Source: Prochlorococcus sp. AG-363-A16 | GTDB lineage: Bacteria; Cyanobacteriota; Cyanobacteriia; PCC-6307; Cyanobiaceae | Assembly: GCA_003280345.1 (NCBI GenBank) | Contig: QCFB01000009.1 | Location: forward strand, 1-64,000 | Direction of reading: 5' to 3' | DNA: 64,000 nt | Shown: in pieces, positions 1,369 to 57,834 of the stretch | Layout of the letters: every line of letters begins with the position of its first letter | How positions within the stretch are numbered: position 1 is the first letter of the stretch | The notes under the pieces: generated by a model | What the model was told of the DNA's origin: nothing | What the model saw: the letters and a program-made list of their open reading frames with translations, nothing else | Databases searched by the model: none | Program-made: the position numbers and the translations under genes

Positions 1369-3408
1369 TCAACTGCCGCTTATGAAAGCAACAAGCTGCC
1401 ACAACTTTTTCTCTCGACCAAGGATATATGTAACTTGAAGATTGGGGATGGATGTCTCAGAGATCAATTCCCCAGAAGAATTCATTCGTTGATCTCTATA
1501 GGCCAGCTTTACTTTTACTTCAATCCTTTTGTTTGTTTGATTTACCACCCTGAAAGTAGTAATAGTTGCTTCTATCTTTTGCTTAAGACCTAAGGCTCGA
1601 TCCTTTGCTCGCTGCTTAATAACACGAGTAACTAATAGCTCTCGCGCGACCTTAGATAAATCATCGCTTTTTCTTCCCGCAAGGATAGTTGCCTTACCAT
1701 CTAGCCAAGTCTCTATAAGGCTTCTAATCTGGAACTCACTAGGTTTATCGACAGTTAAAGGCTCTACCCGTTTTGCTTTAGTTACTAAAGCCTTTTCTTT
1801 TGATTCTTTTAAAGTGTCGTCAACCATTGGTTGCTGGTCAGTACTCACATCTGTTTTGAGCTTTGGTCTCAAAACTTGATGCCTTACTACTATTCCCAAA
1901 ACAAGCAAGACAACAACTAAAGAAATACTCTTAAAAAACTTCCTCCCAAAAAAGAAAGAACTTGCCGCATGAAGACTTGAATCCGCATTCTTCGCAAATA
2001 AGTTCCCAAAAAGATTGCTCAGAGCCCAAAAGCTCCCTGAAGAATGAACTGCAATATCCTTTTCCTTTTCAGAAAGTTCCGTTTCTTCAATTTGATAAAG
2101 CTGGCTCTCTTCAACATCAAAATCAGACTCAGCCTCATTGAAACCCAAATCAGACTCATCATCAGAACCTTGCCCAGGCTCTTCTCCAGTTAAAGAAGTT
2201 AAAAATGAGAATCCTGATTTAGCTATCCCAAGTGCTCCCTTACGCTCAAGATTCTCCACATACTTTTGAACATCTCTATCTGCAAACCAAGCCTCAAGAT
2301 CAACCGCACCTGCGTCCACATCCCTATAACCAGGTAAAACATCTCTTCGCAACCAATCTCGGCAATACTCACAAAGAGCACCAAGAGTTTCCCCAGGATA
2401 ATTTTTCAGCCAATCTTGAAGGCTTTCGTCAGGACTAGAAAAGAATCTTTGCTCTGCTTGCTGAACATCTGCAAGCAACAAATCCATCGATCCTAGTAAT
2501 GGCATTTGATCAATCTCTGGAAGATTTAAACGCCTTAGCTGTCTTCGAGCTTCCTCTAATCGCTCTGGCTTTCTCCTGGAGAAACCAACTGCTGCCAAAG
2601 CAAGTACTGAAAGGAATCCTGCATCTGCTGAACTTCTTTTTCGCCAATGAATAAAAAGATCTAACTGTTCCTGAACAGTTAAAAAATTCCTAATCTGCTG
2701 AAAAAAGATTTCAAAATCAGATTGTTTCAATCCTCCAATCAACTGAGAAGAATTTCTACCTTCTAATCCACCTCTCTTTCTCACAAACCCATCTAATAAA
2801 CGTAATCCTTCTTCACGAGATCCCTTGCTTGAGAGATCTCTACTGACTAAATCAAGGATCCGATATGGAAGTAATAAATCAAGCTCTTTTTCAAGGTTTT
2901 TCCTTTCATCAGCAAGCTTGCCCATCCTCTGCAACAACTGAATCCCTTCTTGTAGAAGCAATGCCGCTGCTTCAAAGTGCCTTTGTTCTTGCTCTTGTAG
3001 AGCTGCAGCTCTGCAAGAGCAAGCAGCAATAAGTGTCAAATCAGATTCCCTTCCGCTTCCAAGAGCAGGCGCTTGTGGAGGCTGTAAGGCCTTGCGAGCC
3101 AGCCCAAAAGCCTCATTAGAGGCATCAGCCTCCCAAAGCAAAATCAACCCAGCGACTTCTCTGTTTGATGAAAATTCAAGACCTAAAGCCCCCCCTAACA
3201 AAGCAGTTTCATACTCATCTCGTTGAGATTGATCAGTAAGCAAATCCGCAGAAAGACGTAACAATTCAGCTCTCTGCGCAAGAACTTCATTTGTAAAGCC
3301 TTGCTCAGGAGGCCGGTCCAAGCGCACCTGTAAAGCCCTTAGCACGGCTTGAGAGTCCGCTGAGGGGCTCACACCTAACAAGCGGAAGTGATCAATCGGC
3401 AATTCCAC
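1369..3408 (-). CDS. ftn2: Cell division protein ZipN/Ftn2 (ARC6 homologue)
   Basis: A cyanobacterial division factor that tethers FtsZ to the inner membrane, orthologous to chloroplast ARC6. The 679 residues start with a J-like domain (about 4-70) lacking the HPD tripeptide, as in ARC6. A long helical region follows, then an acidic linker, one transmembrane segment near 493-510 (valine/leucine rich) and a C-terminal IMS-type domain (about 565-679). The start is GTG, because a TGA lies in frame just upstream. It sits 69 bp after ffh on the same strand and diverges from pdhA. FtsZ and FtsQ are encoded 26 kb away in the same window. The call rests on domain order and J-domain sequence. Confidence 0.9.
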   Translation of the reverse strand: MELPIDHFRLLGVSPSADSQAVLRALQVRLDRPPEQGFTNEVLAQRAELLRLSADLLTDQSQRDEYETALLGGALGLEFSSNREVAGLILLWEADASNEAFGLARKALQPPQAPALGSGRESDLTLIAACSCRAAALQEQEQRHFEAAALLLQEGIQLLQRMGKLADERKNLEKELDLLLPYRILDLVSRDLSSKGSREEGLRLLDGFVRKRGGLEGRNSSQLIGGLKQSDFEIFFQQIRNFLTVQEQLDLFIHWRKRSSADAGFLSVLALAAVGFSRRKPERLEEARRQLRRLNLPEIDQMPLLGSMDLLLADVQQAEQRFFSSPDESLQDWLKNYPGETLGALCEYCRDWLRRDVLPGYRDVDAGAVDLEAWFADRDVQKYVENLERKGALGIAKSGFSFLTSLTGEEPGQGSDDESDLGFNEAESDFDVEESQLYQIEETELSEKEKDIAVHSSGSFWALSNLFGNLFAKNADSSLHAASSFFFGRKFFKSISLVVVLLVLGIVVRHQVLRPKLKTDVSTDQQPMVDDTLKESKEKALVTKAKRVEPLTVDKPSEFQIRSLIETWLDGKATILAGRKSDDLSKVARELLVTRVIKQRAKDRALGLKQKIEATITTFRVVNQTNKRIEVKVKLAYRDQRMNSSGELISETSIPNLQVTYILGREKKLWQLVAFISGS

Positions 3409-3512: not shown

Positions 3513-4604
3513 ATGAGCCAAAGAACCACAAAGGCCTCTGTGCAAACAATTAATACTCCTTTTGAAGCAGGAGCCCATGCGGAGCGCCTGAGCAGCCTGA
3601 CTTCGGCTGAGAAAGCAAGTTTAGACAGGGAAATAGGCTTGGAGCTTTTTAGGGATATGACCTTGGGAAGGCGATTTGAAGACAAATGCGCTGAGATGTA
3701 TTACCGCGGCAAAATGTTCGGATTTGTTCATTTATATAACGGACAGGAAGCTGTGAGCACAGGAGTAATTGGTGCAATGAAAAAGAAACATGACTGGTTT
3801 TGTAGCACTTATAGAGATCATGTACATGCACTAAGCGCTGGAGTACCAGCAAGAGAAGTTATGAGTGAACTTTTCGGCAAAGAAACCGGTTGCAGTAAAG
3901 GGCGAGGAGGGTCTATGCACCTTTTCTCAAAAGAACACCACCTATTAGGTGGATATGCATTTATAGGAGAAGGCATTCCTGTCGCGCTTGGTTCAGCCTT
4001 TACTAGTCGCTATAAACGCAATGCTCTTGGTGAAAATAACAGCGATTCAGTTACAGCAGCCTTTTTCGGGGACGGAACCTGTAATAACGGACAATTTTAC
4101 GAATGTCTAAATATGGCTCAGCTTTGGAAGCTTCCAATTCTTTTTGTGGTTGAAAACAACAAATGGGCAATTGGCATGGCTCACCATCGAGCAACCAGTG
4201 ATCCTGAAATTTGGAGAAAAGCAGATTCTTTCGGAATGAAAGGAGAGGAAGTTGATGGCATGGATGTTTTAGCAGTTCGAGGAGCCACACAACGAGCCCT
4301 AGAGCGAGCCAGGGCTGGCGAAGGTCCTACTTTGCTGGAGTGTCTTACTTATAGATTTCGTGGGCACTCACTAGCCGATCCTGACGAGCTTCGAGCAGAG
4401 GAAGAGAAAAAATTCTGGGCAAAGAGAGACCCTCTCAAGACTTTGGAGAAAGATCTATCAACAAACAACTTAGTTTCTAGCGATGAATTACGAGCGATAG
4501 AGAAGGAGATTGATGAAGAGGTAAATGACTCAGTTGAATATGCATTGGCTGCAAAAGATCCAAACCCAGAGGATCTCACTAGATACATCTGGGCAGAAAA
4601 TTAA
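3513..4604 (+). CDS. pdhA: Pyruvate dehydrogenase E1 component, alpha subunit
   Basis: Thiamine-diphosphate-dependent subunit that decarboxylates pyruvate in the pyruvate dehydrogenase complex. The TPP/Mg signature is clear: GDGTCNNG at about 186-193, closing with VVENN at 212-216. The loop with [11 protein letters not shown] and the motif [13 protein letters not shown] also fit E1 alpha. The 363 residues are of normal size, with an ATG start. A plausible sigma-70 promoter, TTGAAA at 3443 and TATTCC at 3466 with 17 bp between, lies in the gap shared with ftn2. The E3 subunit is at 15.0-16.5 kb; E1 beta and E2 are not in the window. Confidence 0.97.
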
Positions 4605-55097: not shown

Positions 55098-55721
55098 ATG
55101 GTCCGAAGCCACTGGTTGGATCCTCTAGCGCGTCAAGTGCTTAAGCTCTCTGGTCATTTACCTCGCAACAAAAAAATCGAACAAAGTGCGCCCCTGAAAG
55201 AAGATGATATAGAGCGCGAACTTGAAGCAATTAAGCAAAAACAAGCCAAGGTTCAACCCAACGGCTCACCTCTGGTAGATGTAAACCGTGCTACAGCTTC
55301 TGACTGGAGAAGCCTTCCTGGTTGCACGGAATCAATGATCAAACTTTTGTTAAGGCTACAAAAAGGCGGGGTACAACTAAGTGGGAATGAAGACCTTTGT
55401 AAGCTTCTAGACCTATCTCCAGATATTGCTGAAAGTTGGACTCCATACTTGATTTTTCGCTGGTATGGGGGCTCACCTCCTCTTGAACAAGCACCACCAA
55501 TTGATATCAATTATGCAACTCCATCAATTATCAAAAAAAATCTTAACTGGTCTGATGACAGGGTTCAACGCCTGGTTAGGGAGCGACAAAAACAACTGTT
55601 CAATAATCTCGCAGATTTGCAAGAACGACTTACCTTGCCTCCTTCTTGTGTTGAACAATTAATTGGAGGTGTTCGCTTTGGAACAAAATCAGCAGGCCCA
55701 ACCCTTCCTCCAGGATGCTAA
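55098..55721 (+). CDS. Helix-hairpin-helix protein with two ComEA-like modules
   Basis: 207 residues. Module one starts LVDVNRATASDWRSLPGCTE (about 59-78) and module two IDINYATPSIIKKNLNWSDD (about 136-155). Both match the ComEA pattern V/IDIN-A followed by a hairpin and a second helix with EDL or ADL. HhH modules bind the DNA backbone without sequence preference. There is no signal peptide or membrane span, so it is probably cytoplasmic, unlike ComEA. Three bases separate it from the GIY-YIG gene downstream. Confidence 0.8.
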   Translation: MVRSHWLDPLARQVLKLSGHLPRNKKIEQSAPLKEDDIERELEAIKQKQAKVQPNGSPLVDVNRATASDWRSLPGCTESMIKLLLRLQKGGVQLSGNEDLCKLLDLSPDIAESWTPYLIFRWYGGSPPLEQAPPIDINYATPSIIKKNLNWSDDRVQRLVRERQKQLFNNLADLQERLTLPPSCVEQLIGGVRFGTKSAGPTLPPGC

Positions 55722-55724
55722 GAA

Positions 55725-56324
55725 GTGAATCCATTTCGAAGGCAAGGGAACCTGTTTGAAGATCACATACTTAGTGTCAATTCAATAACCCCAAACCAAC
55801 AGTTAAAACTAAGCAGAGATCTCTTGCAAGATTGGCAAAAAAAAGTTCATTCCCATCAGACGAAGTTTTTCAAAGGCGAGGGTTGCACCAACCAACAAGG
55901 TTCTCTTTTTGCAGAAACACATAAAAGTTCCATTGACGAGTTGGAGCCATTAAGCCTCGTACCTCTACCACTGAATTTTTGGCGTTGGCCACAGAGCCCA
56001 CATCATGGTCCTGCTGTCTACTTAGTTATTGACCATCAAGAAGATATGGATGCACATTTATTGCTTTATGTAGGGGAAACAATCGCAGCAGATCGTCGCT
56101 GGAAAGGAGAGCATGATTGCAAGGCCTACCTCTCTGCCTACTCAGAAGCGCTAGGGAGTGCCGGCCTAAAAAGTGAGCTAAGTATCCGTTTCTGGACTGA
56201 TGTCCCAGAAAGCACCCGATCGAGAAGAAACCTTGAGCAAGAACTAATTCAAAGATGGCTTCCTCCATTCAATAAGGAAACAAGATCTAGATGGGCAACT
56301 CCCTTTACAGCAGAGATCCACTAA
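55725..56324 (+). CDS. GIY-YIG-like nuclease domain protein
   Basis: 199 residues with a GIY-YIG core in the second half: GPAVYLVID (V98-Y99 for the GIY strand), LLLYVGET (Y115-V-G117 for YIG), a catalytic arginine in ADRRWKGEH (R124/R125), the metal-binding glutamate in NLEQELIQRW (E171 or E173) and the asparagine in PPFN (N183). All core residues are present, so it may cut DNA. The first 90 residues match no family I know. The start is GTG at 55725, directly after the HhH gene. Confidence 0.72.
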   Translation: MNPFRRQGNLFEDHILSVNSITPNQQLKLSRDLLQDWQKKVHSHQTKFFKGEGCTNQQGSLFAETHKSSIDELEPLSLVPLPLNFWRWPQSPHHGPAVYLVIDHQEDMDAHLLLYVGETIAADRRWKGEHDCKAYLSAYSEALGSAGLKSELSIRFWTDVPESTRSRRNLEQELIQRWLPPFNKETRSRWATPFTAEIH

Positions 56325-56361: not shown

Positions 56362-57834
56362 ATGCAAATTTCCCTCAATCCAACGGGACTAAAAGGCTGG
56401 AATGGATCAGCACTTATCTTGGGCCTGCTCGAAGACAACGTCAAAAATCAACTTGAGCAATTTGAGGAAAGCTCTTTAAGTTCTTTACTCGAGAACTTAA
56501 AAGAAACCGGTTTCTCTGCAAAAGAAGGTGAAGTTGCTAGTTTCAACTTGATCGAAAAAAAGCCTCAAAAAATAATTGTTGTCGGTCTTGGAAAACCCGA
56601 AAATCTCAATCTTGAAATTCTTCGAAAGTCAGCCGCAAATGGAGCAAGAACCTGTCTAGGTACCTCAGGTAAATTAGGCGTTTTTTTCCCATGGGAGCTA
56701 TTTGAGCCCGCATCAGCAGCCAAAGCAGTAGCAGAAGCATGTCAGCTATGCCTATTTACAGATCTAAGGTTCCGCAACGAACCAGAGCCTCAAAAGAAGC
56801 CAGAAGAACTTGAACTAATTGGCCTACAAGGACCTGCTGGAAAGTGTCTGAGCCAAGTCTCGCCAATATGCGCAGGCGTTGAACTTGCGAGAGAGCTCGT
56901 CGGGGCTCCCCCAAATGAGCTAACTCCTGCAGCTATGGCAGAAACTGCTGTTCAGCTTGCCAAAGAGTACAACCTCCAATCAAAGGTTTTGGAAGAAGAG
57001 GACTGCAAATCCAGAGGTATGGGGGCATACCTTGCCGTTGCACAGGGGTCAGATCTGAAACCCAAATTCATTCATCTCACCTATCGGTCTCAAGGGCAAA
57101 TAACACGTCGCCTTGCCATGGTTGGGAAAGGTCTTACCTTCGATTCAGGTGGGTATAACCTCAAGGTAGGCGCCGCTCAAATCGAAATGATGAAGTTTGA
57201 TATGGGTGGAAGTGCAGCTGTACTTGGCGCAGCCAGAGCAATTGGTGAATTACAACCTTCAGGCATTGAGGTGCACTTCATTGTGGCTGCTTGCGAAAAC
57301 ATGGTGAATGGTTCTGCCGTTCATCCAGGCGACATCGTAAAAGCGTCAAATGGCAAAACTATAGAAATAAACAACACTGATGCAGAAGGCAGGCTAACTC
57401 TCGCCGATGCACTTATATACGCAAGTGCTCTCGAGCCAGATGCAATCGTCGACCTGGCCACACTCACAGGAGCTTGCGTTATTGCTCTAGGTGATGAGAT
57501 AGCAGGGCTATGGAGTGAAAGTGACGATCTCGCTAAAAGCCTTCTTGAAGCAGCCAATGCTGCTGGAGAAGGTCTTTGGAGAATGCCTCTACCAAATTCA
57601 TATAAAGAAGGTCTTAAATCAAAGCTTGCTGACATCAAAAACACTGGTCCTAGGCCAGGAGGGTCAATAACAGCAGCACTATTTCTAAGAGAGTTCGTGG
57701 GCGATTCAATTCAATGGGCCCATATTGATATCGCAGGCACCGTATGGACAGACAAAGATAGGGACATAGATCCTGCAGGTGCTACAGGCTTCGGAGTAAG
57801 AACTCTTGTAAATTGGGCATGCAAAGAAAATTAA
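56362..57834 (+). CDS. pepA: Cytosol aminopeptidase (leucyl aminopeptidase, M17)
   Basis: Two-metal M17 exopeptidase removing N-terminal residues from peptides. VGKGLTFDSGGYNLKVG holds the metal and lysine ligands, MMKFDMGGSAAVLGA follows, and the family signature NNTDAEGRLTLADAL sits near 336-350. The N-terminal macro-like domain covers about 160 residues. 490 residues from ATG at 56362. Confidence 0.97.
   Translation: MQISLNPTGLKGWNGSALILGLLEDNVKNQLEQFEESSLSSLLENLKETGFSAKEGEVASFNLIEKKPQKIIVVGLGKPENLNLEILRKSAANGARTCLGTSGKLGVFFPWELFEPASAAKAVAEACQLCLFTDLRFRNEPEPQKKPEELELIGLQGPAGKCLSQVSPICAGVELARELVGAPPNELTPAAMAETAVQLAKEYNLQSKVLEEEDCKSRGMGAYLAVAQGSDLKPKFIHLTYRSQGQITRRLAMVGKGLTFDSGGYNLKVGAAQIEMMKFDMGGSAAVLGAARAIGELQPSGIEVHFIVAACENMVNGSAVHPGDIVKASNGKTIEINNTDAEGRLTLADALIYASALEPDAIVDLATLTGACVIALGDEIAGLWSESDDLAKSLLEAANAAGEGLWRMPLPNSYKEGLKSKLADIKNTGPRPGGSITAALFLREFVGDSIQWAHIDIAGTVWTDKDRDIDPAGATGFGVRTLVNWACKEN

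Follow-up and report, generated by a model that had tools for sequence, protein, structure and literature searches.

Two co-directional genes occupy positions 55098 to 56324 of the window, by which we mean the whole stretch of 64,000 nucleotides analysed here (contig QCFB01000009.1 of Prochlorococcus sp. AG-363-A16, whose genome comprises 1.74 Mb in 47 contigs and is 89% complete). ORF A (55098-55721, plus strand) encodes a protein of 207 amino acids with two ComEA-type helix-hairpin-helix (HhH) units, and ORF B (55725-56324, plus strand, GTG start) encodes one of 199 amino acids, a predicted GIY-YIG endonuclease with clamp-motif-like pentapeptides toward its N-terminus. The first-pass annotation of this DNA had placed B three bases after A, and that layout holds. 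A co-directional ORF of 490 amino acids (56362-57834, plus strand), which we take to be leucyl-aminopeptidase-like, begins 37 bases after B, and a frame resembling it by eye also lies 3' of B in three loci of the family Cyanobiaceae (L004, L009, and L018). Conserved neighbours of B were sought in 40 loci, and no neighbour cluster occurred in more than 5 of them.

The second HhH unit of A (55491-55673, plus strand, residues 132-192) was found by the Pfam profile HHH_3 at an E value of 6.6e-7, above the cut-off, and the first (55272-55460, plus strand, about residues 59-121) is based on the structure model and on structural matches. The model contains two HhH-like units, with structural matches at about residues 57-121 and 132-195, and the first unit matched the ComEA structures 8dss and 2duy with Z scores of 9.4 and 8.2, respectively. 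Other structures resembling the model were Tex, the GspK-type pseudopilin XcpX, and PsbU, while the C-terminal half of UvrC reached a Z score of 3.5 only. NCBIfam had no match that would name A, and inspection by eye revealed no hydrophobic N-terminal segment of the signal peptide kind. The two ComEA-type units proposed earlier were thereby borne out: with its HHH_3 match and its ComEA- and GspK-type structural relatives, A is a ComEA-type HhH protein.

The assignment of B took more evidence. The Pfam GIY-YIG profile PF01541 matched it with an E value of 0.014 and 16.1 bits against a cut-off of 22.6, and a search of its own genome with this profile at E 0.001 did not return B. Since the window protein falls below the cut-off, the GIY-YIG call has to rest on the family as a whole. 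To this end we used a pattern scan of genome contigs, in which 336 of 353 candidate stretches proved to be relatives; the best 80 were retained, and among these best 80 of the 336 related loci the record titles are, with few exceptions, Prochlorococcus, Synechococcus, Cyanobium, or cyanobacteria. Two alignments were made: a family alignment with 57 of 63 nonredundant sequences (L051, L056, L062, L063, L065, and L072 were left out to shorten it) and a phylum-wide alignment of 47 sequences, consisting of 34 of 38 nonfamily loci plus 13 family sequences. Four loci were dropped from the latter: L173, L174, and L175 because their frames are short, and L179 because it is joined to a different frame. 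In the first three (genomes G163, G050, and G060, all nonfamily), B looks truncated or split over frames and may be decaying; in L179 (3000-4103; G251, nonfamily), the N-terminal segment of B, both clamp-like motifs included, continues in a single reading frame into sequence that is helicase-like by eye, perhaps through a rearrangement.

When the 47 aligned phylum-wide sequences were searched with PF01541, 36 matched at E values up to 0.1, the best at 1.1e-8. None of the core residues Y99, Y115, G117, R125, E171, and N183 varied in any of the 57 family or the 47 phylum-wide sequences. The model of B had a mean pLDDT of 86.6, mostly above 90 in the nuclease core (56013-56294, plus strand, about residues 97-190), which is delimited by the invariant residues, the model, and the structural alignment. 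All of the 12 best VIA-align rows for this model were GIY-YIG nucleases, at Z scores of 6.0 to 8.2: T4 EndoII came top (8.2 over 102 residues at 3.0 Å), and further rows included UvrC N-domains (6.2 to 6.7), I-TevI (6.0 to 6.3), and Eco29kI (6.0 to 6.1). Scores of 6 to 8 are middling by the aligner's own note; the rows nonetheless agree on one family. Foldseek gave no significant match of the model in the PDB, a PDB sequence search returned two matches that we took as chance (E 0.49 and 0.93), and NCBIfam had no match for B or for four nonfamily members. Judged by its residue set and modelled fold, B belongs to the GIY-YIG superfamily and would be expected to cleave DNA in a metal-dependent manner. 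The GIY-YIG core residues noted earlier in B are thus confirmed by their invariance and by the agreement of the fold rows; profile searches, which the first-pass annotation had proposed as a check, placed HHH_3 above the cut-off for A and GIY-YIG below it for the window B, though 36 of the 47 members match. The genome of the window has one GIY-YIG match above the cut-off, a stop-free frame of 643 amino acids distinct from B, which by its size should be UvrC.

The first reading of the locus had been that A and B form a split UvrC-like module of two genes. Both folds required, HhH and GIY-YIG, are indeed present, and we determined how regularly the two genes occur together. Among the best 80 loci and the window's own, 36 of 81 had a match to A within the flanking sequence and 45 had none, one of the latter (L051) having only 9 bases upstream. 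B was present in all 37 family genomes searched, including those of 1.6 Mb, and A in 19 of them, in each case adjoining B by coordinates and co-directional with it; the remaining 18 gave no match to A. In the nonfamily part of the sample, B was matched strongly (E 1.8e-20 or better) in 37 genomes, not counting four with weak matches (G005, G064, G087, and G251, E 2e-4 to 9e-4), and 32 of these 37 also had A. In these 32, the two genes were within 20 kb in one genome (G036, where they are 1.3 kb apart with an opposite-strand frame between them), farther apart on one contig in 14, and on different contigs in 17, for which linkage is not strictly excluded. The gene order check gave a divided answer: inside the family, A and B are adjacent wherever A occurs, whereas outside it just one of the 32 genomes with both has them on the same contig at less than 20 kb. 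The first-pass annotation had itself counted separation of the genes in most genomes against the module, and such separation is what is seen outside the family.

Several single loci bear on the history of A. L010 (Prochlorococcus sp. AG-409-I11), one of the 36 loci with a match to A, catches the loss of that gene in progress: what is left of A, at about 3554-3953, is broken by stop codons and a frameshift, and the B frame that comes right after it is open. In L004 and L009 (3060-3881; Prochlorococcus AG-412-I05 and MIT 0701), a frame of 273 amino acids that resembles a LuxR-type regulator by eye takes the place of A upstream of B. In L031, a record titled Rubrivirga (PBTV01000051.1), A and B lie side by side at 46% and 58% identity; this is probably a mis-binned picocyanobacterial contig.

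We rejected the split-UvrC module on the grounds of this distribution, of the A remnant beside an open B, of the ComEA type of the HhH units, and of the separate 643-amino-acid GIY-YIG frame. The same points, set against the regular adjacency in 19 family genomes, make it very improbable that A and B together act as a two-protein UvrC-like repair nuclease. By its distribution A is dispensable; it looks like a separate HhH protein that came to adjoin B upstream, and roughly every second family genome searched lacks a match to it.

We then turned to the N-terminal part of B, described earlier as a 90-residue domain of unknown kind. In the model it consists mostly of a low-confidence segment (residues 1-30, pLDDT 55 to 65), a helix (residues 31-49), and a loop, and it holds three clamp-like pentapeptides. 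Motif 1, QGNLF (55743-55757, plus strand, residues 7-11), lies in the low-confidence segment; motif 2, QTKFF (55857-55871, plus strand, residues 45-49), which is degenerate in the window protein, sits at the end of the modelled helix; and motif 3, QGSLF (55896-55910, plus strand, residues 58-62), is in the loop, where the block mean pLDDT is 74 to 79. The predicted placement is therefore mostly flexible, as would suit a clamp client.

The pentapeptides stand out in both alignments. Q7, Q45, and Q58 were invariant within an otherwise variable stretch of the family alignment; phylum-wide, Q7 and L10 never changed and F11, Q58, and L61 rarely did, again in an otherwise variable N-terminus. Across the phylum, motif 1 fitted the pattern Qxx[LIM][FL] in 46 of 47 sequences and motif 3 in 38 of 47, which leaves 9 without a full motif 3; within the family, the counts were 56 of 57 for motif 1 and 51 of 57 for motif 3. 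The glutamine of motif 2 was present in 47 of 47, the full pattern in 45 of 57 family and in none of 34 nonfamily sequences. In the 1.7-Mb family genome G103 (L180), motif 1 alone survives, as QFELF. Nonfamily sequences have motif 1 as QL-x-LF in 26 of 34, often directly after the start, and a second motif of the Q-x-[ST]-L-F type about 45 residues farther on; their start codons were picked beside motif 1, so its nearness to the N-terminus is partly by construction, a bias of which motif 3 is free. The bacterial clamp-client consensus appears in passages of PMC9690074 as QL(S/D)LF, to which the nonfamily form of motif 1 is close, and we count this in favour of clamp docking. At least two Qxx[LIM][FL] motifs before P75 were found in 39 of the 47 phylum-wide sequences, whereas 2,000 within-sequence shuffles gave 0.55 such sequences on average and never more than 5. 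As background, Q[GLA][NSD][LIM]F occurred in two of the 53 ORFs of at least 120 amino acids in the window and twice in B only; with a looser pattern, three of the same 53, including B, had two motifs within 60 residues. The sole other ORF with the strict pattern is a 679-amino-acid frame on the minus strand (1369-3408), with QLDLF at residue 248 and QMPLL at residue 301. On these sequence counts, the Qxx[LI]F-type pentapeptides of B appear conserved above chance.

DnaE, MutS1, and DnaN served as calibration. DnaE of the window genome (L292) has QGNLF, identical to motif 1 of B, at its putative clamp site, and the aligned site, which we take for that of clamp binding, read Q-x-[NSD]-[LIM]-[FL] in 29 of 29 readable sequences (30 were fetched, and the longest frame of L288 is not DnaE). 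MutS1 of the window genome (L239) has QGSLF, identical to motif 3 of B, in its N-terminal tail. Family MutS1 showed Qxx[LIMF][FLWY] in this tail in 40 of 46 sequences, mostly as QG[SDN]LF, a count taken from stop-to-stop frames, in some of which the motif could precede the true start; a cruder count on the same set gave 37 of 47. Four of the family sequences that do not match the pattern carry QLSLV or QLSLT there by eye (L205, L209, L211, and L215). Outside the family, a C-terminal pentapeptide such as QLDIF (QL[DN]IF type) was present in 18 of 28 usable sequences, compared with 0 of 46 counted in the family, where matches in the last 60 residues that we judged internal (QLVFL in two family and QIIFL in four nonfamily sequences) were not taken as C-terminal. 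The MutS1 count leaves out the duplicate L247 and the nonfamily L270 and L279, for which no domain start was found, both with a C-terminal QLDIF. A single nonfamily MutS1 (L267, QLSFY) had an N-tail match. The clamp-like motif of MutS1 thus appears to have moved from the C-terminus outside the family (L256 to L285) to the N-terminal tail inside it (L188 to L217, L240 to L255, and L239). The second position of the pentapeptide switches from L outside to G inside the family in both B and MutS1, and we considered this as a sign of co-evolution; it is not usable as proof, DnaE having G both inside and outside. DnaN of the window genome aligned with 51 distinct solved sequences at E values up to 1e-20, all clamps by name, and is by these alignments an ordinary clamp.

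Taken together, it is probable that B is a DNA endonuclease of the GIY-YIG type and that DnaN recruits it to freshly replicated DNA. This reading draws on the conservation of the motifs above shuffled sequences, the same pentapeptides in DnaE and MutS1, their flexible placement, the invariant core, and the presence of B in 37 of 37 family genomes; counted against it are the sub-cut-off Pfam score of the window protein, the nonsignificant Foldseek result, the middling Z scores, and the fact that short motifs can mislead. Two N-terminal pentapeptides of B, or three in most family sequences, would dock in the client pocket of DnaN as those of Pol III alpha and MutS do, and the C-terminal nuclease of B docked in this way would reach the DNA that the fork has left behind. 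With two or three such sites per chain, B could stay on the ring while other clients come and go, or could occupy both pockets of the clamp dimer. The undescribed DNA-processing pair proposed at first is accordingly reduced to half: a DNA-processing role is likely for B through its clamp motifs, and joint action with A falls away.

The family poses a particular question about mismatch repair. MutL was above the cut-off in 0 of 61 family genomes, nine having short sub-threshold matches; in a search with MutL_C, no family genome was among the matches listed, and at least 20 of 37 family genomes had no match. MutS1 was found in 61 of 61, in 58 above its cut-off. Sections of earlier papers describe the same state: Prochlorococcus MED4 keeps mutS and misses mutL and mutH, the existence of mismatch repair being left open (PMC2921402), and mutL is given as lacking for marinus (PMC5101192). 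A hypothetical MutH analogue in cyanobacteria has been postulated on other grounds in a part of PMC4390886, and an HLII Prochlorococcus mutates, according to an excerpt of PMC10837832, at an unremarkable 3.5e-10 per site per generation. Since B is family-wide and clamp-tagged in a family with MutS1 and without MutL, it could fill the slot of MutL or MutH, and we tentatively suggest, as the likeliest single pathway that we can name but still a possibility on the unlikely side, that B makes the strand incision for mismatch repair started by MutS1 in these MutL-less picocyanobacteria. In such a scheme, MutS1 with a new N-terminal clamp tag would meet B on the same DnaN ring, and B, a clamp-tethered nickase with matching pentapeptides, would incise the strand where MutL or MutH does so elsewhere.

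Part of the distribution speaks against this role. All 37 nonfamily genomes with a strong B also have MutL, one genome (G048) has neither MutL nor B, contrary to a strict rule that B replaces MutL, and the family-wide pattern of MutL absent and B present amounts to a single phylogenetic contrast. Twenty cyanobacterial MutL proteins, 10 from genomes with B and 10 from genomes without, all keep an endonuclease-like motif, EQH-x-A-[HQ]-E...E, so MutL outside the family probably needs no helper. We had considered complementarity between MutL and B outside the family and ruled it out, the proteins from genomes with and without B sharing the same motif. The endonuclease motif of MutL typically starts in DQHA fashion; these 20 (L218 to L237) read EQH[IV]A[HQ]ER at that place, and all but L232, which is truncated at a contig end, retain CPHGRP (19 of 20).

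Clamp docking leaves room for other work at the fork, unrelated to MutS. GIY-YIG enzymes of the SLX1 or EndoII kind cut branched or flapped DNA, crosslinks, or intermediates of recombination, and we hold a task of this sort for B to be a substantial possibility, if somewhat short of an even chance. T4 EndoII and UvrC N-domains are the nearest structural rows of B, MutL accompanies B in every nonfamily genome with a strong match, the occurrence of B outside the family is patchy (37 of 102 nonfamily genomes of the class with MutL), and no gene neighbourhood of B points to mismatch repair, all of which is consistent with such a task; harder to reconcile with it are the universal presence of B in a family without MutL but with MutS1, and the same kind of pentapeptide as that of B in most of the family's MutS1 proteins. 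It seems improbable, by comparison, that the Q-motifs are fortuitous or bind a partner other than DnaN and that B is an untethered nuclease, derived for instance from a restriction system or a mobile element. Its structural rows do include homing and restriction enzymes, motifs this short arise by chance, and a further two ORFs of the window have two loose motifs within 60 residues; yet the shuffle test (39 of 47 against a mean of 0.55), the identical pentapeptides in DnaE and MutS1, the presence of B throughout the 37 family genomes, and the lack of any homologue in a phage collection or in viral contigs argue against it. A phage or mobile origin of B was set aside on the phage searches, which gave 18 pattern-matching stretches with 0 relatives in viral contigs and one match in PHROGs, at E 0.099.

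The clamp-delivered endonuclease remains the reading that we prefer, and B is a small cyanobacterial GIY-YIG nuclease hitherto uncharacterised. We found no description of a clamp-tagged GIY-YIG family in the literature searched, which lacks most subscription journals. Whatever its pathway, such a family would occur in some of Earth's most abundant photosynthetic cells. With B in 37 of 37 family genomes and its clamp tags shared with DnaE and MutS1, the question of picocyanobacterial mismatch repair becomes directly testable; if the incision role were true, ocean picocyanobacteria would run mismatch repair without MutL, with B as its missing cutting step.

Several known systems resemble B in part. 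T4 EndoII, the UvrC N-domain, Eco29kI, and I-TevI have the core fold and the catalytic residue set in common with it (Z scores of 6.0 to 8.2) and differ from B in its two or three N-terminal clamp-like motifs; we know of no clamp-docking motif in any of the four. UvrC combines GIY-YIG, UvrB-binding, RNase H-like, and HhH regions in a single chain, whereas B, at 199 amino acids and with a GIY-YIG match alone, has no room for the other parts, and A is a separate gene. The closest model for how B may work is EndoMS/NucS of Actinobacteria and Archaea, in which, according to portions of PMC8228993 and PMC9690074, docking on the clamp raises endonuclease activity in lineages without MutS and MutL. 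NucS, however, as PMC8228993 describes it, combines a RecB-like nuclease region with a motif at the C-terminus, whereas B is GIY-YIG by profile, residues, and predicted fold, is tagged at the N-terminus, and coexists with MutS1. Once MutS has acted, the MutL endonuclease or MutH incises the newly made strand, with docking on the clamp in the case of MutL (PMC9690074 and PMC8228993), and theirs is the slot proposed for B, a slot that appears empty in picocyanobacteria (MutL in 0 of 61; extracts of PMC2921402 and PMC5101192); B differs from both in showing a GIY-YIG match only and in coexisting with MutL in other cyanobacteria. Finally, plant MSH1, as described in part of PMC12292046, pairs a MutS-type protein with a GIY-YIG domain, much as we propose for MutS1 and B, but it does so in one fused chain for which that part of the source mentions no clamp motif, whereas MutS1 and B would be paired through the clamp.
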